From assembly GCA_022566515.1 (NCBI GenBank), contig JADFIT010000011.1, forward strand, positions 1 through 39,629: a stretch of 39,629 nt of DNA, written 5' to 3'. The stretch comes from Gemmatimonadota bacterium. Its GTDB lineage: Bacteria; Gemmatimonadota; Gemmatimonadetes; Gemmatimonadales; GWC2-71-9. Of the stretch, positions 29,459-39,629 are shown piece by piece. The notes under the pieces are model-generated. The model was not told the origin of the DNA, did no database searches, and was given only the letters and a program-made list of their open reading frames with translations. The position numbers were made by a program, and so were the translations under genes. The stretch's first letter is position 1. Every line of letters begins with the position of its first letter.

Positions 29459-30952
29459 TTGGTAAATCACGTAACACCAGTAGAGGACCTGCCCCGGATC
29501 ATTCAGGGCGGAATGGGGGTCGCAGTATCCGATTGGCGTCTGGCCAACATGGTAGCACGGAACGGACAGCTCGGCGTGGTATCCGGAACCGCACTGGACT
29601 CGGTGTTGGTGCGCCGCCTGCAACTGGGCGATCCCTGCGGCGCAATCCGCAGGGCGCTGTCCGAGTTCCCCTGGCCCGACATGGCTCAACGGAGCCTCGA
29701 CACCTTTTTTGTTCCGGGCGGAAAATCGGCGGACGAGTCCTTCAAGCTGGCTCCGCTTGCCAGGATGAGATTGCGGACCTCGCTGCTGGAACTCCTGGTT
29801 GTGGCGAACTTCGTAGAGGTGTTCCTGGCCAAAGAGGGACACTCCGGTCCGGTGGGGATCAACTACCTCGAGAAAATCCAACTCCCTAACGTGCCCTCGA
29901 TTCTGGGCGCGATGCTGGCCGGCGTGGAGGTCGTTCTGGTCGGCGCCGGGATTCCGATGGCCATCCCCGGCGTGCTGGATTCGCTCTCCCACTGGGAAAC
30001 CGTGGAGTTTAACCTCGGCGTCGAGCAAAACCCCGATCGGCACAGCTACGTCCAGCGGTTCGACCCGCGGGAGTATTTCACCGGTGAGCTGCCCGAGTTG
30101 GCGCGCCCCAACTTCCTGGCGATCATCGCGTCCGACACGCTGGCAAAGACGATGGTGAAGCGCGCGTCGGGCTATGTGAACGGGTTCGTGGTAGAACATC
30201 ACTCCGCCGGGGGTCACAACGCGCCTCCTCGCCGCGTGAGAGGGGCCGATCCGGACGCTCCGCCCCGATACGGGGAGCGTGATCTTCCCGATCTCGAGGT
30301 CATCGCCGACATCGGGCGACCGTTCTGGCTGGCGGGGAGCAATGCCTCTCCCGAAAAGCTCGCCGAAGCCCGCGCGGCCGGTGCGCATGGAATCCAGGTG
30401 GGCACGGCTTTCGCGTTCTCTCGTGAATCGGGGATTCTTGCCGAAATCAAACACCGAGTGCTGCGTGAACAGAAGGACGGCACCCTTAAGGTCCGAACGG
30501 ACTTCAACTCGTCACCCACGGGGTTCCCGTTCAAGGTGATCGAATTGGATGGCACCGTCTCCGACGAAGAAACCTACGCCGCGAGAGAGCGGATGTGCGA
30601 CCTGGGGTACCTGCGGCGGCTCTACGCCAAAGGCGAGTCCAACGTGGGGTATCGCTGCCCCAGTGAACCCGAGAGGAATTTCCTGGCAAAAGGCGGCACG
30701 ATGGAGGATACCATTGGCAAACGGTGCCTCTGTAACGGACTGCTCGCAACAGTTGGGCTCGGCCAGACCCGCGACGGTGTCTCGGAACCCCCGGTCGTCA
30801 CCTCCGGAGACGATTGGGCGTTCCTGCCGCACGTGACGCGGGGGGACGATGTCGACTACGGTGCCGTGGATGTGATCGAATACCTTACGCGGCCGGTGGG
30901 GGCGGCGGCAGAGTCGGATTCACTGCGGAATTTAGCGCCGCGATCAGTGTAA
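29459..30952 (+). CDS. nitronate monooxygenase-like flavoprotein, long form
   Basis: A 497-residue protein of the NMO/PfaD-like TIM-barrel group. Opening motifs are PRIIQGGMGVAVSDWRLANM and GQLGVVSGTALDS. Later come GPVGINYLEKIQLP, VNGFVVEHHSAGGHNAPPR (catalytic His region), PFWLAGSNASPEKLAEARAAG and GIQVGTAFAFSRESG. About 120 extra residues at the C-terminus (CDLGYLRR...IGKRCLCNGLLATVG) contain a conserved-looking cysteine cluster. Ordinary NMOs are 320-350 residues, so this is a distinct long subfamily. The start is TTG 29459, chosen because family similarity begins there. A TTG at 29375 would add 28 basic, low-quality residues. It is unlike the other NMO gene in this window, so they are not recent duplicates. 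Confidence 0.85.
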   Translation: MVNHVTPVEDLPRIIQGGMGVAVSDWRLANMVARNGQLGVVSGTALDSVLVRRLQLGDPCGAIRRALSEFPWPDMAQRSLDTFFVPGGKSADESFKLAPLARMRLRTSLLELLVVANFVEVFLAKEGHSGPVGINYLEKIQLPNVPSILGAMLAGVEVVLVGAGIPMAIPGVLDSLSHWETVEFNLGVEQNPDRHSYVQRFDPREYFTGELPELARPNFLAIIASDTLAKTMVKRASGYVNGFVVEHHSAGGHNAPPRRVRGADPDAPPRYGERDLPDLEVIADIGRPFWLAGSNASPEKLAEARAAGAHGIQVGTAFAFSRESGILAEIKHRVLREQKDGTLKVRTDFNSSPTGFPFKVIELDGTVSDEETYAARERMCDLGYLRRLYAKGESNVGYRCPSEPERNFLAKGGTMEDTIGKRCLCNGLLATVGLGQTRDGVSEPPVVTSGDDWAFLPHVTRGDDVDYGAVDVIEYLTRPVGAAAESDSLRNLAPRSV

Positions 30953-31004
30953 CTCGGCCGCTCGTCGGTTGATTACTTGTGGGATATTCGATCGGCTCGC
31001 GCCG

Positions 31005-31370
31005 TCAGTCGTCCCGGCGGCGCGGCTGGCAGCGGGATCCACCTGCGTTGCGCAGCAACTCTTTGCCGACGACGAGGACGAGAATGATATCCGGCTCTAC
31101 CTCGTTCCGTGCGGTGAGATGGCATGGTACGTTGCCAAACACGTCTGCGGCAAAAGTCTTGCGCCCATCCACGTCCGGTGCGAGGTCGGTGATCTCGTCG
31201 TTGCCGAGTAGCTCGATCACGAACCTCACTTCCTTTCGCCCCCACGCAAACGGCAACAACCGCGTGCCGTCGGCCTCGACCAAACCGATACGGGTCCAGT
31301 TTCCGCTCCAATACGCGTAGATCATGGCATCGAACTCGCTCTGGTTCTCTACGCTCACGAATACCGCCAT
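31005..31370 (-). CDS. small hypothetical beta-rich protein downstream of ychF
   Basis: A 121-residue protein without a signal peptide at its N-terminus, opening MAVFVSVENQSEFDAMIYAY, followed by RIGLVEADGTRLLPFAW and VRFVIELLG. The alternating strand pattern with NQS, WxG and ADG turns looks like a small beta-sandwich. Similar 'V.V.N.S..D..IY......RLG.V' openings occur in short proteins I associate with Gemmatimonadota, but I cannot name a family. It follows ychF by 45 nt on the same strand. The C-terminal tail RCQPRRRDD is basic. Confidence 0.65.
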   Translation of the reverse strand: MAVFVSVENQSEFDAMIYAYWSGNWTRIGLVEADGTRLLPFAWGRKEVRFVIELLGNDEITDLAPDVDGRKTFAADVFGNVPCHLTARNEVEPDIILVLVVGKELLRNAGGSRCQPRRRDD

Positions 31371-31415
31371 CGGCGCGCCACATTCTCATCAAGGCATCCC
31401 GAGATATCGCGAGCG

Positions 31416-32456
31416 CTACACGTTGAAGCGGACGTGCATGATTTCTCCGTCGGACACGACGTGGTCCTTCCCCTCTACCTGAAGACGACCGGCGTCTTTC
31501 ACGGCCTGCTCTGAGCCGTACTCCATGAACACATCGTAGGGAATGACTTCGGCGCGAATGAAGCCACGCTCGAGGTCGGAGTGTATACGGCCGGCGGCAG
31601 GGCGCGCCGTGGTGCCCCGCCTGATGGTCCACGCCCGCACCTCGTCGGCTCCGACCGTGAAGAACGAGATGAGGTCGAGCAGCCCGTACGCCGTCCGTAT
31701 GAACCGCGCCAACGCCGACTCGGTGAGGCCGAGATCCTCGAGAAACGCCGCTCGATCTTCGGCATCCAAGCCGCCGATTTCCGCCTCGACGCTTGCCGAC
31801 AACACGAGGCCCGCGGCATGGAGCTGCTCGATTCGCGCGCCGAGTTCGTCGGGCAACGGTTCCGCCGCCCGGTCTTCGCTGCGGTTCAATGCCACGAGCA
31901 GTTGGCGGTCGGTGAGTAGATTGTATCCTTTGAGAAAATCCCGATTCAGCTCCTCGGCCGCGAGGCTTCGCAGCGGACGCTCGGCCTCGAGCGTCGTGTT
32001 CATCAACTCGAAAGCGGCCACCTCCTGCGGGTTGGCTTTTTCCTTGCGAGCGCGGTCGAGCCGCCGCTCGACGATCTCGAGATCGGCCAAAACGCACTCA
32101 ATATGGAATGATTCGAGATCGCCGAGTGGGTCGGGGTCCCCCTCGAGGGCTGGGTTCGCAAAGTCGCGAAGAACGAGACAGAGGGCTTCTTGATCGCGAA
32201 TCTGCTGCAACGCCTTCTTCGACAGTCCCTTCTTCTCGGCGCCGTACTCGCCGGGAATGTCGCAAAAATTGATCTCGGCGTATGTGGTCTTTTTCGGGGA
32301 GAAGATTTTTGACAGGGTGTCGATGCGTTCGTCCGGCACCTTTACGGACCCGTAGCGAATCCCCCCACCGAACCCCACTGGTACATCGAGCCCGGTCATC
32401 ACGTTGAAGACCGTCGTTTTCCCCGAGCCCGCGAAGCCCACCAATCCGATTTTCAT
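31416..32456 (-). CDS. ychF: YchF-type (Obg family) GTPase/ATPase
   Basis: A 346-residue P-loop protein. The G1 loop is GFAGSGKTT (residues 6-14), the G3 is DIPGEYG, and the G4-position motif is ALNRSED, with N-x-x-E in place of NKxD, as in YchF proteins that prefer ATP. A coiled-coil insertion follows (LADLEIVERRLDRARKEK) and then a C-terminal TGS-like domain: ISFFTVGADEVRAWTI, RPAAGRIHSDLERGFIRAEV, GKDHVVSDGEIMHVRFNV. It is slightly shorter than the usual 363 residues. ATG 32456 puts MKIGLVG at the N-terminus. No strong ribosome site is seen. The 298 bp upstream holds no gene but has a TATGATATC-like promoter element. The role is translation-associated stress control, as known for the family. 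Confidence 0.93.
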   Translation of the reverse strand: MKIGLVGFAGSGKTTVFNVMTGLDVPVGFGGGIRYGSVKVPDERIDTLSKIFSPKKTTYAEINFCDIPGEYGAEKKGLSKKALQQIRDQEALCLVLRDFANPALEGDPDPLGDLESFHIECVLADLEIVERRLDRARKEKANPQEVAAFELMNTTLEAERPLRSLAAEELNRDFLKGYNLLTDRQLLVALNRSEDRAAEPLPDELGARIEQLHAAGLVLSASVEAEIGGLDAEDRAAFLEDLGLTESALARFIRTAYGLLDLISFFTVGADEVRAWTIRRGTTARPAAGRIHSDLERGFIRAEVIPYDVFMEYGSEQAVKDAGRLQVEGKDHVVSDGEIMHVRFNV

Positions 32457-32754
32457 ATATTGCGCGACGTCACCCGATTGCCGTTGGCTGATATCATAGA
32501 CATAAAAGGAATTTACTTTTCCCTGTCCCAAGTATCACCCTTGGCGCTGGATGCGTCCAGCCATTGGGATGAGGGTACCCGGGCAGTATCCGGTAGCTCA
32601 CATGCGGGGTACGGGACGATCAACTCCGCCGATCCGAGCGTCCACAGTTCCACCAAGCCGGGCCCGCATGTTGGCCCTGATAGACCACCGGTGCAGGCTG
32701 CAGCTGGTTTCTGCCCGCTGCACCCTTTCGGCGACGGCACAAAACGCGCAACTC

Positions 32755-34140
32755 CTATCGCACCATGGCCAGCGCGATCTCCTCGGCCGTGTACGGTAGA
32801 CCCTCACTCAAGACACGATGGCCGTCCGCGGTGATGAGGATCATGTCTTCCAGATAGTACGCGTCCGGCCCGATCGAAAACCCCGGCTCGTAGGCGACGA
32901 CCATTCCGGCGCGCAGCTCCGGTGGGATATCTTCGCCGCTCTCGATCCCGACTCCGTGAATGTGCCACACGCTTTCCCCTCCGGAGAGGATCGCGTCGGC
33001 CGCGGCGCGGCCGTCCGCCGTCACCATGTCGTCCTGCAGCTCGCGTACCGCCTCGATGCTTGCGGCTCGCACCGCCGAGATCGTGACGCCGTCGCTCATC
33101 GTATCGAGCCCCGCTTTGTAGCCGGCGATCAGGAGATTCCACGCCTCGGCCTGACCCTCCGAGAAACTCCCGGACACGGGAAGCGTGCGTCCGACGTCCG
33201 CCCCATAGGCCCCCCCCGCGCAACCGACGTCGACTCGGACGAGCTCTCCGGGTCGAGCGATCCGATCGCCCTGGTCGTAGCGGAAAAAGGCCCCGACCAG
33301 TCGCCCCATGTGCGCATTCGGGCCGGACATCGTCCACGGCCAGAACGAGGGGCCCTGTCCGCCGACATCCAGACACGTCGTGACCATCGCGGCCTCCGTT
33401 TCGCGCTGGCGAACACCCGGTCGGAGTCGTTCCGCGACCGCGAGCAGGCTCACGACCGTCATGCGCGCGTTCCGTTCGAGGACGGCCACCTCCGCGTTGG
33501 ACTTCACGGATTTCATCTTCATGATCTCCGTCTTGGCGCTTTCGATCCGGGCCGACGGAAAGGATGTCGCGATCGCCGATCGCCAGAGTGTCCGATCGCC
33601 GGCGAGGGGCGGGAGGTCGTTCGGTGAGCCGGTCGCCTCGGGCCTCCTCGCGCCGTCGAGATAGATGATCGCCCCGGCTTGGACGCGGCCTTCGAGCCAA
33701 TCGACGAAGTCCGTCCACGGACGCGCGGAATCGAACTCGTATCGCGATGCCGTCATCGGGCCGGGCTCCGGAACGAGTCCCTCGACGGCCATCCCGAACG
33801 ACTCGGGTGCGGGAGGAAGGAAGAGATGTGACGCACCCTCCGGACCGTCGAGCGCGAGGATCGCGCCGGGGACTTCGGTCAGCCCGCTGAAATACTGGAA
33901 CGTTGGATCCTGGACGAACCCCCACTGCTCCATCGTCTTTGCCGCCGGACGGGCGTGCAGGACGAGAATCCCATCGGAGAACGCTTCCAGAGCCGCTGCA
34001 CGACGCGCGCCGTACTCGCGCATGGGGATGTCGGGCACGTCGGCCACGTAGTCTGCGGCTGCCGGCCGGGATGCGTCGGCGCTCGAGTTGCAGCCCCAAG
34101 CGGTCATGATGAAAAGGGGAATTGCACGCCACAATCGCAT
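32755..34140 (-). CDS. M24 family Xaa-Pro peptidase, lipoprotein
   Basis: A 461-residue pita-bread peptidase. ATG 34140 is chosen: GGAGGGAGG lies about 6 nt upstream, and the N-terminus (MRLWRAIPLFIMTAWGC) is a lipoprotein signal with Cys about residue 17. The N-terminal creatinase-like domain is followed by the catalytic domain with all five metal ligands: D304 (RVDVGCAGG), D315 (GADVGRT), H395 (HIHGVGIES), E418 (VVAYEPGF) and E431 (YYLEDMIL). It removes N-terminal residues in front of proline, here in the cell envelope rather than the cytoplasm. It lies 48 bp downstream of hicB on the same strand but is not obviously part of that operon. Confidence 0.92.
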   Translation of the reverse strand: MRLWRAIPLFIMTAWGCNSSADASRPAAADYVADVPDIPMREYGARRAAALEAFSDGILVLHARPAAKTMEQWGFVQDPTFQYFSGLTEVPGAILALDGPEGASHLFLPPAPESFGMAVEGLVPEPGPMTASRYEFDSARPWTDFVDWLEGRVQAGAIIYLDGARRPEATGSPNDLPPLAGDRTLWRSAIATSFPSARIESAKTEIMKMKSVKSNAEVAVLERNARMTVVSLLAVAERLRPGVRQRETEAAMVTTCLDVGGQGPSFWPWTMSGPNAHMGRLVGAFFRYDQGDRIARPGELVRVDVGCAGGAYGADVGRTLPVSGSFSEGQAEAWNLLIAGYKAGLDTMSDGVTISAVRAASIEAVRELQDDMVTADGRAAADAILSGGESVWHIHGVGIESGEDIPPELRAGMVVAYEPGFSIGPDAYYLEDMILITADGHRVLSEGLPYTAEEIALAMVR

Positions 34141-34187
34141 CGCACCCTCCCTCCGGTTACATGGATACGCCGTCCGACATCCAAACG

Positions 34188-34556
34188 TCAGCGACGGGTG
34201 GTTCGCTGCGCTTCGCAATGCGCTATTCCCTGAGCCAGCAGGGTCACGGCCAGAGTGTTGAGGGACACACCCTCAACTTCCGCCCGATTGACGAGTTGCA
34301 CGTGGAGACTCCGCGGCACCCTCAATCGGAATTGCCCGCTGGCCGCGGGTTGAATGGCCGCAGCCGGCAACGGCTCATTGTCTTCGGCGAGCGTTTCCAC
34401 CACCATCTCGAGCACCGTCGACAGTTCGCTCACCGCTTCCTCACGCGAACGCCCCAATCCGGAGAGCCCGTCTATTTCAGGACACGAGGCGACGTAACAA
34501 CCGTCCTCAGCGCTCCAGAAGACCTTCGCGCTGTAAGGTGGAACCTCACAGGTCAT
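34188..34556 (-). CDS. hicB: HicB-type antitoxin
   Basis: A 122-residue antitoxin. The degraded RNase-H-like HicB fold is clear at the N-terminus: YSAKVFWSAEDGCYVASCPEIDGLSGLGRSREEAVSEL. The C-terminal part RLRVPRSLHVQLVNRAEVEG followed by VSLNTLAVTLLAQGIA is a ribbon-helix-helix DNA-binding domain of the 'R(L/I)P..LH..L...A...G.SLN' type. ATG 34556 starts inside the 3' end of hicA (11-bp overlap). A GTG at 34577 would add seven residues. HicB neutralises HicA and represses the operon through the palindrome upstream of hicA. Confidence 0.85.
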   Translation of the reverse strand: MTCEVPPYSAKVFWSAEDGCYVASCPEIDGLSGLGRSREEAVSELSTVLEMVVETLAEDNEPLPAAAIQPAASGQFRLRVPRSLHVQLVNRAEVEGVSLNTLAVTLLAQGIAHCEAQRTTRR

Positions 34557-34791
34557 CTTCGAGATCCCCAATGGCACGAACGAGCTGGCGGACCTGGTAC
34601 GCCTTGGCGCGCCCCCCTACATCCTGAAAGTTCATCAAGGCCACCTGTCCCACCCTTCCGTATAAACTGTGACTGCCCCTACGCCGCTTGAGCTTCCATC
34701 CGAAGCACCCCGCCAACCGACACAACTCGCTGAACCTGAGGCCGGCAGGGTTGGCGGTGGCGCGGTCGAGCAGCGCCTTACACCGTGACAT
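34546..34791 (-). CDS. hicA: HicA-type mRNA interferase toxin
   Basis: An 81-residue protein with the HicA double-stranded-RNA-binding-like fold: ALLDRATANPAGLRFSELCR, LAGCFGWKLKRRRGSHSLYG, then KAYQVRQLVRAIGDL. The histidine in RRRGSHSLY is the catalytic His of the family. The sequence is of the longer 'PxGLRFSELCRLA' subtype. ATG 34791 is used. In-frame ATGs further upstream fall inside the operator palindrome. The gene comes before hicB, which is the usual toxin-first order. Confidence 0.85.
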   Translation of the reverse strand: MSRCKALLDRATANPAGLRFSELCRLAGCFGWKLKRRRGSHSLYGRVGQVALMNFQDVGGRAKAYQVRQLVRAIGDLEDDL

Positions 34792-34804
34792 CAGCCGCCA
34801 AAGT

Positions 34805-34828
34805 AATGGTACCATATGCGGTACCATT
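34805..34828 (-). promoter_or_regulatory. 24-bp palindrome upstream of hicA (candidate HicB operator)
   Basis: AATGGTACC (34805-34813) and its exact reverse complement GGTACCATT (34820-34828) are separated by 6 bp, centred about 26 bp before the hicA start. A perfect 9-bp inverted repeat in this position is what an autoregulated ribbon-helix-helix antitoxin would bind. ATGGTACCAT in the left half is itself palindromic. Confidence 0.6.
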
Positions 34829-35245
34829 CCACAACTGGCCTCGCTCGCCCCGACATCGCCCCGATCCACTGTGTTGCTCGTGCATGTCGGATAATGCCGA
34901 CGGGGAAAAACTTTACTGCATCAATCCTTCGCCTGGAGGATTAAACGAATGCGGAGGCGGGTCGAGCGAAAACCTTGATCGATCAGTTGCAATCGATCAT
35001 CCGTGGGCCGGCAGCACCTTGCTGTTGCGCAGCACCGCCGCGAGCCGCGCAGCGGGGAGCGGGTGAGTTCAACCCCATTCAGGTGCCAGTCGCACCGATA
35101 ATCGCACCGGCGATAGCGCAACGGCGGGACCAGAGATCGCGGGCCGGGCAGGAACGGGGCGGCAGCGACGAGGGCTCGGCTACAGAGGAGCGCGGTTCAT
35201 CCTATCGGGGCGGGTGGCCCTCTTGCGGGAGGGGTATCGACAGGC
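34829..35245. other. intergenic stretch between HicAB and the AbiE-like cassette, no gene seen
   Basis: About 417 bp with no frame showing family features. A GATCGATCAG...CGATCATC region (34976-35000) and a GC-rich stretch with TTGCGCAGCACC and CCGCGCAGCGG occur around 35030-35060. Possible promoter material for both neighbours lies at the edges. It may be decayed island DNA. Confidence 0.4.
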
Positions 35246-35298
35246 TACCATGGTCATGGTAATTAACATGGCCACGATAAATATCATGGCCGTGATAA
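35246..35298 (+). promoter_or_regulatory. inverted and direct repeats before the AbiE-like operon (candidate operators)
   Basis: TACCATG (35246-35252) and its reverse complement CATGGTA (35255-35261) form a palindrome with a 2-bp centre. Then two near-identical 14-mers, CATGGCCACGATAA (35267-35280) and CATGGCCGTGATAA (35285-35298), follow at an 18-bp period. The second sits in a near-palindrome, ATCATGGCCGTGAT. The cluster is AT-rich compared with its surroundings and ends 24 bp before the start codon, which suits autorepression by a winged-helix regulator such as AbiEi. Confidence 0.5.
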
Positions 35299-35322
35299 GA
35301 TTGAGTATAGGCAGTCATCTTT

Positions 35323-36489
35323 ATGCAGAACAAAGACTTAGCGCCACGATCGTACAGCTCGGACAGCGGCCGAGGAGCGCAGCAGATCCTAGCGGAGATC
35401 TTTTCCCACGCTGGCTGGGACGTGGTGCCCGACCCCAGACAGCACAAGGCCCGGCGACCAGATCTGGTAGTCCGTCGCCGCGGTGCATCGTATGCAATCG
35501 AGGTCAAGGCGGCCTCGGAAGGGAGGAGCGATCGTCTTATTGCTCTGTGGTCGCAAGCGCACCTCCAGGCCGCTCGGTTGGCCCTCGATAAGCATCCCCC
35601 GCTGGCCGTCGTCGCGGCACCACGGATTAGCCCAAAGGTCGCGGAAAACGTACTCAAGTTCGCCGCTGAGAACGCGCCCGATGCTGCGGCGGGTGTTATC
35701 GACTTCGTGGGCCTTCGCCGATTTCGGGGCCCACAACTCGAGGAACTGAACTCCGCTGGCGATCACGCACCTTCCCAGTTCCACTCCCTACACAGTGAGC
35801 AGTCGGATCTTTTCTCCGATCTCAACCAGTGGATGCTCAAGGTCCTGCTTGCACCCGAACTTCCCGAACACTTGCTGTCCGCCCCCCGCGACCAGTGCCG
35901 CAACGCCTCGCATCTTGCTCGCATGGCAAACGTGTCTCCGATGAGTGCATCACGGCTGGTACGGCTACTCGCGCGCAGAGGGTACCTAGACGAGTCTGAC
36001 CGCTATCCGAGACTAGTGCGCCGGGAGGATCTGTTCCGGCGATGGCAGGCATCCAGTTCGCGCCGCATCCGTGAGATGCCGATGCGGTTCCTCCTTCGCG
36101 GTGATCCAAATAAAGAACTCCATCGAGTCCTACTGAGCGATGGGGTCTGCCTAGCGCTCTTCGCGGCAGCAGAGGCTCTGAATTTGGGATTCGTTCACGG
36201 GGTACCACCATACATCTACGTGAATCGGTTACATCCGGCCAGTTTGCCAAAATGGAAGAACGTCGCTCCCGCCGATCCGGGTGAAGTACCAGATTTCATC
36301 CTCCGACAGGCGCCAGCACGTCAATCGGTGTTTCGGGCTGCTGTAAAGGTAGACGGGAAGCTCGTGAGCGATGTGCTTCAGGTGTGGCTGGATGTGTCTG
36401 CGAATCCATCGCGAGGCGAGGAACAGGCCGAGCTGATTCGGCACAAAGTCCTCGACAAAATCATACGAGGGGCACCCGCCGATGAATGA
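35323..36489 (+). CDS. PD-(D/E)xK nuclease - winged helix - AbiEi-like regulator
   Basis: A 388-residue three-part protein. Residues about 15-150 carry a restriction-nuclease fold: E25 in the first helix, P46-D47, then E60-V-K62 after 12 residues (RRPDLVV...YAIEVKAAS), followed by a helix with Q78. This is the full E-PD-ExK set of Mrr-like nucleases. Residues about 185-245 form a winged helix (ASHLARMANVSPMSASRLVR, LLARRGYLDES). The C-terminal 140 residues (LHRVLLSDGVCLALFAAAEA; PPYIYVNRLHP; VLQVWLDVSANPSRGEEQAE) resemble the C-terminal domain of AbiEi antitoxins. Known AbiEi proteins have the wHTH and C-terminal part but usually no nuclease. It overlaps the nucleotidyltransferase gene by 8 bp. 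It is probably both regulator/antitoxin and DNA-cutting effector, which is inference. Confidence 0.75.
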   Translation: MQNKDLAPRSYSSDSGRGAQQILAEIFSHAGWDVVPDPRQHKARRPDLVVRRRGASYAIEVKAASEGRSDRLIALWSQAHLQAARLALDKHPPLAVVAAPRISPKVAENVLKFAAENAPDAAAGVIDFVGLRRFRGPQLEELNSAGDHAPSQFHSLHSEQSDLFSDLNQWMLKVLLAPELPEHLLSAPRDQCRNASHLARMANVSPMSASRLVRLLARRGYLDESDRYPRLVRREDLFRRWQASSSRRIREMPMRFLLRGDPNKELHRVLLSDGVCLALFAAAEALNLGFVHGVPPYIYVNRLHPASLPKWKNVAPADPGEVPDFILRQAPARQSVFRAAVKVDGKLVSDVLQVWLDVSANPSRGEEQAELIRHKVLDKIIRGAPADE

Positions 36490-37300
36490 TCTCGAGGCGA
36501 TGGCACGACTGATCAACGCGCTCCGCCCCTGGCTCGCCCACCTCGTCGTCATCGGAGGTTGGGCCCACCACCTGCTCCGATACCACCCTGACGCAAGGGC
36601 ACCAGCACATGAGCCGCTGCACACGAGGGACGCAGATGTCGCGTTCTCGTCGTCTGCGCCGCTCAAGGGAGACATCTCCGAAGCGCTGCAGTCAGCTGAC
36701 TTTCAGGAAGAGCTACGAGGGGAGCATACGCCGCCGGTGACTCGCTACTGGCTTGGCGATGCCGATCAGGGTTTCTACGTGGAGTTCCTCGCACCACTCA
36801 CTGGAGATGGCCTCAGGCGAGATGGACAGGCAGACGCCACCATTGCCAAGGCTGGAGTGACAGCACAGAAGCTCAGGCACGTGGACCTTCTCCTGATAGA
36901 TCCGTGGTGCCTTCTGCTCGACAAAGCAATTGGTTTTCCGATTGCGGAACCGGCGAACGTGCTGGTAGCAAACCCCGTGAGCTTTATCGGTCAAAGGCTG
37001 CTGATCCATCATCAGCGTGATCCAATGAAGAGGGCCCAAGACGTACTGTACATCCACGATACGCTCGAGTTGTTCGGGCATCGGCTGGATGCCCTCCGAA
37101 CAGAATGGCGAGATCGCATGCAACCAAGGCTTGCAGCAAAGACAGCCACGGACATTGACCGCAGTCGTGAAGTGCAGTTCGGCGCGGTCACGGATGTGAT
37201 CCGGGAGGCGGCCCGAATTCCACAAGACCGGACGCTCCGCTCTGAACGCATGCGGGCAACGTGCGAGTATGGCTTGGAGAGAATCTTCGACAACGACTAG
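36482..37300 (+). CDS. AbiEii-like nucleotidyltransferase
   Basis: A 272-residue protein with a polymerase-beta-type nucleotidyltransferase core: LVVIGGWAHHLLRYH (G25-G26) and TRDADVAF (D50, D52) are the GG...DxD pair, and E98 or so in GFYVEFLAPL is a candidate third acid. Later segments LLIDPWCLLLDKAIGFP and HHQRDPMKRAQDVLYIHDTL match the lysine and 'R..KD..D' helices of AbiEii toxins. AbiEii-type enzymes transfer nucleotides to RNA (tRNA acceptor ends in characterised cases) and cause abortive growth arrest. The start overlaps the upstream stop, so the two are translated together. The target of this one is unknown. Confidence 0.8.
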   Translation: MNDLEAMARLINALRPWLAHLVVIGGWAHHLLRYHPDARAPAHEPLHTRDADVAFSSSAPLKGDISEALQSADFQEELRGEHTPPVTRYWLGDADQGFYVEFLAPLTGDGLRRDGQADATIAKAGVTAQKLRHVDLLLIDPWCLLLDKAIGFPIAEPANVLVANPVSFIGQRLLIHHQRDPMKRAQDVLYIHDTLELFGHRLDALRTEWRDRMQPRLAAKTATDIDRSREVQFGAVTDVIREAARIPQDRTLRSERMRATCEYGLERIFDND

Positions 37301-37506
37301 TCGAGCGGAGTGATGCCGTCGCGCGGGGGAGGCAAGAGTGTAGACGGCGTCAGAATTGTCTCATCGGTGCGCCAGGCATCTGGCGTAACCACTGCGCGCC
37401 CACTCGATACTCGGAGGTCTGTGACTCCCGTTCGTTGTGACGGCTGGATCCGACCGAGCACGTGAAGGACGATCAACCCGGCGATGTTAGCACGCTGCGC
37501 CAGCAA
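37297..37506 (-). CDS. doubtful small ORF convergent to the nucleotidyltransferase gene
   Basis: A 69-codon frame (MLAQRANIAGLIVLHVLGRI ... VVTPDAWRTDETILTPSTLL) with protein-like composition. Its stop overlaps the nucleotidyltransferase stop by four bases (CTAG). It has no recognised motif and no clear ribosome site. It overlaps the possible integrase tail on the other strand, and at most one of the two is real. Confidence 0.25.
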   Translation of the reverse strand: MLAQRANIAGLIVLHVLGRIQPSQRTGVTDLRVSSGRAVVTPDAWRTDETILTPSTLLPPPRDGITPLD

Positions 37507-37569
37507 GACCGACCTGTGAGACAGTCACCAGAATTTGGCACACTATTGGCACACAAGCGCGAAAAATGA
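37441..37569 (+). pseudogene. possible C-terminal remnant of a tyrosine-type integrase
   Basis: A frame opening right after a stop ends RQSPEFGTLLAHKREK and TGA at 37567-37569. The 'FGT.LAH' tail, followed at once by a terminator and then a convergent tRNA 3' half, is the arrangement seen at the ends of tRNA-targeting tyrosine integrase genes. No catalytic R-H-R-Y residues remain, so this would be a fragment of about 42 codons. It is supported by context more than by sequence. Confidence 0.3.
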
Positions 37570-37594
37570 GCGAGCCGGCACGACTCGCTCATTT
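37564..37594. terminator. strong bidirectional intrinsic terminator
   Basis: An 11-bp perfect stem, AAATGAGCGAG (37564-37574) with CTCGCTCATTT (37584-37594), and a 9-nt loop. The stem ends in A- and T-runs, so it can work in both directions: after the + strand integrase-like tail and after the minus-strand tRNA fragment. Confidence 0.75.
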
Positions 37595-37625
37595 CTAAGT
37601 TGTTGCTGTATTGTCGGTTACGAAG

Positions 37626-37667
37626 TCGGGACGGCCGGATTCGAACCGGCGACCCCCTGAACCCCAT
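37626..37667 (-). pseudogene. 3' half of a tRNA-Pro(GGG), likely attachment-site copy
   Basis: Read on the minus strand, the anticodon loop is ATGGGGT (T33, anticodon GGG, G37). It is followed by the 3' anticodon stem TCAGG, variable loop GGGTC, T arm GCCGG-TTCGAAT-CCGGC, acceptor strand CGTCCCG and discriminator A. All parts have exact tRNA lengths. The 5' anticodon strand should be CCTGA but reads ACAGA, so tRNA identity stops at the anticodon loop, a known crossover point for integrases. A strand GGGCCC-like to the right, CGGGATC (minus, 37767-37761), could pair 6 of 7 with the acceptor but is about 90 nt too far upstream for a normal tRNA. No CCA is encoded. Confidence 0.6.
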
Positions 37668-38054
37668 TCTGTCAAACCCGGGAATCCAGATCCACGGCAG
37701 GCGGCGTAAGTGCGTACCCATTAACGTGATCCGCGCTCTACCCGCCAGGCTATCCCTGGCGATCCCGGGAGTGTAACGCTCGTTTCCCGCCGCAATCTAT
37801 TGGCACCAATACTCAGACAGGATAGGACGGCCGGGCTGACGGGGGGTGCCGTTTGAAGCATATTGAGTGGCGTGGCCTTGCTTGATATGCCGCCAGGCGT
37901 TCTCCGGCCGGGCCATCTCAGCAGCTTGGCGGTGCAGAGGCTTGAGACTCGGTTGCCGAGGCGAGGCCGCAGCTGACTGGGGAGACAGGTGGCGCTTGAA
38001 GATGGGAACTAGAATGGTCCATCCATTTCGTAGTTAGCGGGCACGGGCAGGATT
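37668..38054. other. stretch between the tRNA fragment and the insertion sequence, no gene seen
   Basis: 387 bp. On the minus strand it contains a hairpin CGCCAGG/CCTGGCG near 37744-37762, next to TAGCCTGGCGGGTAGAGC, which resembles a tRNA D arm but does not fold with its surroundings. A minus-strand frame with ARPENAWRHIKQGHATQYAS (around 37850-37925) looks protein-like but has no recognised family and may be an eroded element gene. Confidence 0.4.
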
Positions 38055-39467
38055 GAGATATTGTCAAATGTTGTGGATCGAGGTTTGATCAAGCGGCAAC
38101 CTTTCGATCCGTTTTCTCGCGGTCAGTTTCCTGAATTCCATCGTTGAAACGTTCTCCCACCAACACCAGGGGTAGCAGTTGTGGAGCGTTGAGTTTCCGC
38201 CAGCGTTGCTGTGCCATCTCCAAAAGCTTGAACACCATCGTCAGCCCTTTGGTCCGAGAGCCCGCTCCCTTGGTCACGCGTTGACGTAACCGTACTGTCG
38301 CGAAGGCAGACTCGATCACGTTCGTCGAACGGATATGTTTCCAATGCTCGGCCGGAAAATCAAAATGGGTGTACAGGTATTCCTGGTCCCGCGTGAGCGA
38401 GGCGACTGCCTTGGGATACTTGGCCACATATGCGGAGTCGAAACGCTCCACCAGAGCCTCGGCCTCCGCACGCGACTCCGCATACATCATCTCTCGCAAC
38501 GCCCGCTTTGCCGCCGGCTGCATACGCTTCGGAAGCTTGTCCAACACGTTGGCCATCCGGTGCACCCAGTCGCGCTGCTGCTGCGTCGCCGGCCACACCT
38601 CCCGCACCGCCGCCCAGAACCCCAACGCCCCATCCCCAATCGCCAGCACCGGGGCCCGCATCCCCCGACGCTTCAAATCGCGCAACACCGCCAACCAGCT
38701 CTCCGTACTCTCCCGATAGCCGTCCTCCACCGCGATCAGCTCCTTCGTCCCGTCCGCCCGCGCGCCCAGCATCACCAGCGTGCACAGCCGGTCTTCCTCG
38801 AGCCGAATGTTGAAGTGGATCCCATCTACCCAGATGTACACATACTCCCTGTCGCTCAGATCTCGCCGGCGAAACTCCCGGTACTCATCCTCCCACACAG
38901 CCGTCAATCGCGTGATCGTCGTCGGAGACAATCCCGAGGCGTCATCACCCAGCAAAATCGGCAACGCCTCGCGAAAATCTCCCGTCGAAAGACCCCGCAA
39001 ATACAACACCGGCAATACCTCCGCCACCTTCGGCGACCGCCGCATATAGGGAGGCAAAATCCTGCTCGTGAACTGCTCCCGCACACGACGGTCATTCACC
39101 CGAGGCGCTGCGATCGCTACCGTCCCACAACCCAGCGTCACCTTGCGGGGACGGGCCTTCCCGTTACGCACCACCTGGGCCCGGCCCTCCTCGTCTCGAT
39201 CGCGCCGGTGGCGCTCCACATACTCCGCAACCTCCGCGTCCAACGCACTCACCAGCATCCGCCGAGCTCCCTCCCTGGCCAGCTCGTCCAGGTCCGTTAA
39301 CAGTCCGTTCCCTTTGCTTCCGGAACCATCCTCTATTATTCTCAACATCGGGTGGCGTGTCCTTTCTCCGGTCGTCACAACCGGATCTCGTGTGAATTTC
39401 AAGTGACTACACGAAAGGATACGCCGCCTTTCTCATTCCTCCAATCCACAACTTTCGATAATAACTC
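38055..39467 (-). mobile_element. IS256-family insertion sequence, apparently complete
   Basis: The element is about 1413 bp and carries one transposase gene. The terminal inverted repeats can be read: left end GAGATATTGTCAAATGTTGT (38055-38074) continuing GGAT. The right end read inward on the minus strand is GAGTTATTATCGAAAGTTGT (39467-39448) continuing GGAT. 20 of 24 positions match, with weaker similarity continuing inward. I see no 8-9 bp direct repeat immediately outside (left GCAGGATT, right CACCCCGA), so the exact ends may be off or the flanks rearranged. Confidence 0.85.
38089..39348 (-). CDS. IS256-family DDE transposase
   Basis: A 419-residue mutator-type transposase with all three catalytic acids: D175 (YIWVDGIHFN), D239 (AIGDGALGFW) and E346 (STNVIESAFATVR). 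The spacing is close to that of IS256 itself. The helix with HRMANVLDKLPKRMQ between D239 and E346 is the family's helical insertion. The N-terminal DNA-binding part contains LAREGARRMLVSALDAEV. ATG 39348 with GAGAAAGGA upstream is preferred. A TTG at 39402 would add 18 residues. The gene is full length without frameshift, so it may be active. Confidence 0.93.
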   Translation of the reverse strand: MLRIIEDGSGSKGNGLLTDLDELAREGARRMLVSALDAEVAEYVERHRRDRDEEGRAQVVRNGKARPRKVTLGCGTVAIAAPRVNDRRVREQFTSRILPPYMRRSPKVAEVLPVLYLRGLSTGDFREALPILLGDDASGLSPTTITRLTAVWEDEYREFRRRDLSDREYVYIWVDGIHFNIRLEEDRLCTLVMLGARADGTKELIAVEDGYRESTESWLAVLRDLKRRGMRAPVLAIGDGALGFWAAVREVWPATQQQRDWVHRMANVLDKLPKRMQPAAKRALREMMYAESRAEAEALVERFDSAYVAKYPKAVASLTRDQEYLYTHFDFPAEHWKHIRSTNVIESAFATVRLRQRVTKGAGSRTKGLTMVFKLLEMAQQRWRKLNAPQLLPLVLVGERFNDGIQETDREKTDRKVAA

Positions 39468-39629
39468 CACCCCGATCGCGCGATTAGACTAAAAACGCAC
39501 GCGGCCGGCAGGTGCTATTGGCTAGTTAGCAGACTGTCGAAATACCTATAGGTCAACGACGAGGCGTGATGTAAATTAGCGCGGTGATTCGAGTAGTCGT
39601 GATCCCCCACTTCACGGAAGGTGACACGG
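39468..39629. other. window end beyond the IS, no confident gene
   Basis: A GTG at 39584 opens a frame reading VIRVVVIPHFTEGDT to the window edge, which looks protein-like, but 15 codons are too few to call. Confidence 0.3.

Follow-up and report, generated by a model that had tools for sequence, protein, structure and literature searches.

What should a nuclease-like domain be doing at the head of an antitoxin-like regulator? The question is raised by two overlapping genes, A and B, in the window analysed here, a stretch of 39,629 nucleotides (contig JADFIT010000011.1, assembly GCA_022566515.1) from a Gemmatimonadota bacterium. A sequence-only reading had proposed that A fuses a PD-(D/E)xK nuclease to a winged helix and an AbiEi-like C-terminal domain, that B is an AbiEii-like nucleotidyltransferase, and that this possibly novel fusion could form a two-effector defence system. 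Both open reading frames lie where that reading had placed them, on the + strand and overlapping by 8 bp (Table 1). The cassette itself belongs to a known kind, and we put the probability at roughly 70% that it is an autoregulated two-gene toxin–antitoxin (TA) module resembling AbiE and MenAT, with B as the toxin and A as the repressor and antitoxin. The folds, the pairing, the homology, the operator array and the residue conservation can be seen in the sequence itself. We infer that B would be a toxin that most likely transfers nucleotides to an RNA such as tRNA; that the winged helix of A would bind the promoter at an array in which two to four palindromes of 16 bp are placed 18 bp apart; and that the C-domain of A would neutralise B. 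The N-domain would most likely bind or sense nucleic acid and have a part in assembly, and its catalysis may have been kept in some lineages and be dispensable in others.

Table 1. Features of the cassette and its flanks, in positions of the window
Feature	Position	Strand	Description and basis
HicB	34188-34869	-	Pfam 2.8e-7; a 107-aa ORF precedes it
Predicted operator array	35246..35299	+	three tandem imperfect 16-bp palindromes, consensus TAACATGGCCATGTTA; repeat finding
Gene A	35323..36489	+	388 aa; three-domain regulator and predicted antitoxin, AbiEi_2 (COG4861) class
N-domain of A (residues ~11-145)	35353..35757	+	PD-(D/E)xK (restriction-endonuclease-like) fold
Putative catalytic D47 ... 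E60-x-K62	35461..35508	+	conservation among 84 orthologues
EGRxDR motif (E66-R71)	35518..35535	+	conservation among 84 orthologues
Winged-helix domain of A (residues ~161-247)	35803..36063	+	Pfam in orthologues; hhalign to AbiEi class
AbiEi_2-like C-domain of A (residues ~250-382)	36070..36468	+	hhalign; Pfam in few orthologues
Gene B	36482..37300	+	272 aa nucleotidyltransferase; PF12281; 'GSU2403 family' in NCBI; predicted toxin
GG motif of B (G25-G26)	36554..36559	+	65/65 homologues
T48-R-D50-x-D52 of B, catalytic Asp pair after Thr	36623..36637	+	T48 65/65, D50 64/65, D52 65/65
Residues 172-187 of B (R/K172 ... D187)	36995..37042	+	spacing shared with MenT1 K137 ... D152
tRNA-Pro fragment	37623-37669		matches tRNA-Pro(TGG) in its 3' part over 37 bp (92%)

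That B is a nucleotidyltransferase holds, but its Pfam family is PF12281 (NTP_transf_8, 4.9e-29), with no match to Pfam AbiEii (PF08843), and its fold is nearest to that of the MenT toxins. With the structural model of B (pLDDT 95) as query, the best Foldseek matches are MenT1, MenT3/TglT and MenT4, all at probability 1.00 (best E 1.1e-4); a sequence-only profile search with B found no MenT chain. The GG and DxD motifs pointed out earlier are present and near-invariant, and GG, T48, D50, D52, E101 and D193 are each kept in 64-65 of 65 homologues. Judged from such comparisons, the active site of B tolerates much less variation than the D/ExK site of A. In MenT1, the residues of T39-x-D41 (T39-R40-D41 in sequence) and of K137-D152 have been studied by mutation, and the Ser/Thr at the phosphosite is strictly conserved in related families (PMC11375011). 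In B, T48-x-D50 has the spacing of T39-x-D41 and residues 172 and 187 that of K137 and D152 (15 residues), both matched by spacing, and by this measure T48 matches the MenT phosphosite. MenT1, MenT3 and MenT4 of M. tuberculosis (PMC10435456, PMC11541572, PMC11375011) are like B in fold and in catalytic and phosphosite spacing, whereas their antitoxin partners differ from gene A. The activity of the window's copy of B is uncertain, because Arg172 replaces a Lys found at this position in 97% of the homologues.

The pairing of the two genes exceeds chance. The source genome (3.6 Mb, a draft assembly with 241 contigs) has a single PF12281 locus, which is the A-B pair, and a search of genome contigs yielded 80 loci from Acidobacteria, Gemmatimonadota, Proteobacteria and others; across 63 orthologous loci the A-B intergenic distance stays between -17 and +13 bp. 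Within a phylum sample of 298 genomes, a regulator lies directly upstream of the PF12281 transferase in 12 of 13 cases, and the sole gene without one has an internal stop. Gene A occurs without an intact B at 17 of the 80 scored loci, with D/ExK intact in 10 of them, where a B counted as broken can be frameshifted, truncated or missing, and some of these cases may be errors of assembly. A transferase that is rarely without its regulator, together with a regulator that survives alone, is the asymmetry typical of TA modules, in which a toxin requires its antitoxin and the antitoxin is viable alone. Seven plasmid records match the cassette and phage records gave no match; neither protein matches the defence models of PADLOC 2.0 at E<=1. 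A homologous pair on a Burkholderia contaminans plasmid is named 'RpiR family transcriptional regulator' and 'GSU2403 family nucleotidyltransferase fold protein' at NCBI, names that recognise neither a TA pair nor a nuclease fold. The reading offered here would correct annotations in many genomes, where such genes stand as an RpiR-type regulator or a hypothetical protein.

The regulator is tied to annotated antitoxins through all three of its domains. The winged helix that had been proposed is borne out by Pfam on the orthologues and by an AlphaFold2 (AF2) model; it is the best-conserved domain of A, bears FSDLNQWM(L)K and is matched by Pfam HTH_Crp_2, MarR and IclR in 26-44 members. Pfam AbiEi_2 is found in 4 of 73 orthologues (best 0.0028) and, for window protein A alone, gives no match at E<=1. 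Aligning profiles of the window family and the annotated AbiEi_2 class with hhalign supports the C-domain assignment of the sequence-only reading (P 4.4e-17) and extends the homology to the winged helix (P 1.3e-13) and the N-domain (P 1.9e-8; probability 95.4%, with D47, E60 and K62 in register), against P > 0.01 and probabilities of 0.2-3% for mismatched domain pairs as control. A Sphingomonas AbiEi protein as query retrieves gene A in the source genome at E 7.4e-5, and distant relatives of A match proteins that NCBI calls 'type IV toxin-antitoxin system AbiEi family antitoxin'. These NCBI proteins, from Sphingomonas, Sphingobium, Bosea and a Klebsiella ICE, score above the Pfam AbiEi_2 cut-off, adjoin 'AbiEii/AbiGii toxin family' genes and carry D...(E/D)xK within their N-terminal ~140 residues. 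One AbiEi_2 subgroup has wholly lost D/ExK from its N-domain, which aligns with that of the ExK-bearing group (96.8%); its direct profile alignment with the window N-domain gave no signal (probability 0.5%), and it is tied to the window family only via ExK-bearing intermediates.

A unique fusion of a nuclease to a regulator is ruled out by these homologous N-domains: all three domains occur in annotated AbiEi_2-class antitoxins, and the claim of novelty fails, since annotated type IV AbiEi antitoxins carry a homologous D...ExK N-domain. The nuclease-fold N-domain is an inherited, ancestral feature of the class and was not bolted on. The pair WP_069207651 and WP_069207650 of Sphingomonas panacis (AbiEi_2 and AbiEii-type) illustrates this, with the same three co-linear domains, D...ExK included, and an overlapping nucleotidyltransferase gene downstream, as in the window cassette. 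Compared with such AbiEi_2-class pairs, the window family has an extra EGRxDR motif, the Arg of which has a GxPR counterpart in part of the wider class, another operator sequence, and a transferase of PF12281 instead of PF08843. Gene A shares with the class the order of winged helix and C-domain, the upstream coupling to a transferase and, by sequence, the inverted repeats in the promoter; it is unlike the two-domain antitoxin of AbiE sensu stricto (COG5340-COG2253). The AbiE of Streptococcus agalactiae, which is of that latter type, is likewise a bicistronic pair of winged-helix regulator and nucleotidyltransferase (PMC3985639) with a tandem inverted-repeat operator (PMC7319586), but its AbiEi consists of two domains and lacks the N-terminal nuclease-fold domain, whereas gene A has three.

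A published table equates PF09952 with COG4861 (PMC7251935), and Dy et al. 2014 (PMC3985639) described COG4861-COG4849 as a highly associated regulator-transferase pair in a text that nowhere mentions a nuclease. Judged by titles and term counts, no paper in the open-access journal literature searched links AbiEi with a nuclease-fold domain in a relevant way. The three-domain AbiEi_2/COG4861 architecture with a nuclease-fold head thus seems to be previously undescribed, and the same seems to be so for the cross-phylum operator of the window subfamily.

This predicted operator of gene A, through which A would repress its own promoter, consists of palindromes that begin at 35246, 35264 and 35282 upstream of the gene. 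Allowing up to 4 mismatches in the 200 bp upstream of 83 orthologues, we counted 173 sites of TAACATGGCCATGTTA in 71 of the 83 regions, across phyla, where the remaining sequence of these loci would lead one to expect 0.2, and the spacing between sites is exactly 18 bp in 94 of 102 cases. The motif had been chosen beforehand from a few of the counted loci, so that the count is not independent of the choice; the roughly 900-fold excess and the exact cross-phylum pitch cannot stem from it. The promoters of AbiEi and Rv2827c contain inverted repeats of 23 bp to which these regulators bind (PMC7319586), and the window array is shorter and tighter than those tandem repeats, yet similar. In the source genome, up to 3 mismatches return the three cassette sites and two others at chance level. 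A regulon beyond the cassette was rejected, as a reversed control pattern matched as often or more in that genome. Upstream of gene A no sigma-70 promoter was found, with 1.0 expected by chance. Distant AbiEi_2-class genes (such as L129, L092, L096 and L104) seem, by eye, to have other repeats upstream, of the type TTTCA...TGAAA, and each subgroup of the class may have its own operator. Assays of binding and of reporter activity could start directly from the conserved array.

The N-domain is the part of A on which the proposed attack on invading DNA depends. Pfam Mrr_cat matches it in 24 of 73 orthologues (best E 2.9e-9), and the AF2 model of A, built on the 73-orthologue alignment with a mean pLDDT of 89, places helices at residues 11-29 and 69-86 and strands at 33-36, 48-52, 55-63 and 93-99, giving the alpha-beta-beta-beta-alpha-beta topology of the PD-(D/E)xK superfamily to which Pfam, AF2 and Foldseek all point. 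The best PDB matches of the model by Foldseek are Hjc Holliday-junction resolvases, at probability 1.00 and an E value of only 1.5e-3 with the whole multidomain A as query. A PDB sequence-profile search with A and B gave nothing significant; Hjc 1gef appears there at E 0.23, in an alignment spanning the D...ExK region. Archaeal Hjc and Mrr_cat share fold and D...ExK with the N-domain, but Hjc are small single-domain enzymes, whereas gene A is multidomain and its catalytic acids have often decayed.

The extent of this decay is best seen among the 84 orthologues. The sequence-only reading was right that D47 and E60-x-K62 are present in the window protein; D47 is kept in 70 orthologues, E60 in 69 and K62 in 82, and all three, with either E or D accepted at position 60, are intact in 63, the window copy included. 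On a tree made from the winged helix and C-domain only, the triad changes between intact and lost at least 17 times. E25, which had been counted into the nuclease signature, is there in the window protein but was rejected as a catalytic residue, since position 25 varies across the orthologues (D 24, E 18, N 10, A 7). The fold stands and the triad is mostly intact, yet with repeated loss and a variable E25, conservation, the measure that the sequence-only reading had itself set, neither refutes nor secures the nuclease activity that had been claimed. In the EGRxDR motif, by comparison, R68 is kept in 83, R71 in 81, E66 in 80 and D70 in 79, so that this surface and the fold are held more strictly than the catalytic acids. 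Triad losses occur also in loci with intact B, and the integrity of the site is not associated with that of B (Fisher p 0.10; independent-pairs sign test median p 1). Because the cutting site decays so often, the N-domain probably serves control and not attack.

How do the alternatives fare on this evidence? In the two-effector scheme of the sequence-only reading, A is a nuclease guided by its winged helix that cuts invading DNA, and a loss of A lets B arrest the host. A fold nearest to Hjc and Mrr and a triad intact in most orthologues are what this idea would lead one to expect, but it is weakened by loss of the triad in a quarter of the family while EGRxDR and the near-invariant transferase site stay, by such losses beside an intact B, and by the small share of defence genes among the neighbours; we consider it unlikely. 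Less probable by far, and in our view hardly tenable, is a reversal of roles in which the toxin would be A, as a nuclease, and B would act as its antitoxin by modifying A. HEPN/MNT systems provide a precedent (PMC7641770), and several orphan copies of A are without E60 (L022, L040, L044, L051; Val in L168). However, A persists with D/ExK intact in the 10 loci noted above that have no intact B, the only regulator-less transferase in the transferase-side sample is a pseudogene, and B folds like known toxins; A as the toxin was rejected, nuclease integrity being unassociated with an intact B.

The remaining alternative refines the TA reading instead of opposing it. Here the N-domain would sense a nucleic-acid structure produced by phage or damage and free B, with no cutting needed. 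The likeness to Holliday-junction resolvases and the near-invariant EGRxDR, with its counterpart in part of the wider class, are in line with such a sensor, but homologues sit mainly in ordinary chromosomal contexts and the trigger is hypothetical, and we hold the model as a tentative one, better placed than either of the two above. Since it is a refinement of the TA reading, the probability given for the latter overlaps with those of its rivals. Within the module, a sensing or binding N-domain is more likely than an independent effector. It is somewhat more speculative still that, throughout AbiEi_2/COG4861, the N-domain is a functional nuclease or a structure-specific sensor, through which the recognition of nucleic acid that is foreign or damaged would lead to toxin release; if this were true, the class would be a TA family that carries its own trigger, one that escaped notice since the N-domain was never annotated. 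AbiE-type modules are widespread, and a nuclease-fold domain across the AbiEi class would be a concrete candidate for the trigger by which phage infection or stress frees their toxin. Against the TA reading itself we count that the window proteins are missed by Pfam AbiEi_2 and AbiEii, that PADLOC gives no match, that B carries Arg172, and that three quarters of the family retain D/ExK, a larger share than a mere relic would call for.

The surroundings of the cassette had also been taken to indicate a defence island, through a HicAB pair, a tRNA attachment remnant and an insertion sequence. On the upstream side Pfam confirms HicB; the small ORF next to it, of 107 aa, may be its HicA partner and has no Pfam match at 1e-3. 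Downstream, at the contig end, the insertion sequence is present as a Mutator/IS256-type transposase (Pfam 1.1e-60), and a stretch of 37-44 bp matches tRNA-Pro genes at other places in the source genome over their 3' part, as had been noticed, and may be a remnant of an attachment site. The same stretch also matches a site outside tRNA genes, on contig C61, over 44 bp (100%). Rfam gave no match over 30000-39629. The argument is weak once the orthologues are considered, as the Pfam families of 112 ORFs around them are mostly ordinary chromosomal ones, and a minority match PADLOC (Dsr1, type III RM, Wadjet JetA/B, RmrA and candidate families). A defence island thus appears possible, though not typical, for these loci.

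A few loci depart from the common arrangement. At L022 (5995-11070) an orphan A that has lost D47 and E60 keeps two operator sites and has no B; a SIR2-like ORF of 1274 aa, probably the source of the Dsr1 match (PADLOC E=0), begins 97 bp after it, and a defence gene may there have come under the control of the regulator. The IMG/VR contig L168 (4890-6223) has an A with E60 replaced by Val, three operator-like sites and a B of ~41 residues, among neighbours that by eye are DarT-like, PIN and TIR-like nucleotide-binding ORFs, apparently defence or TA genes. Three Acidovorax loci (L040, L044, L051) have an A with Val at position 60 and no B at all, and at L040 an ORF of 1308 aa lies downstream of A. 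Finally, a 511-aa ORF at L093 (1135-2667) appears to be a regulator of the class fused at its C-terminus to a small NTP_transf_2 domain.
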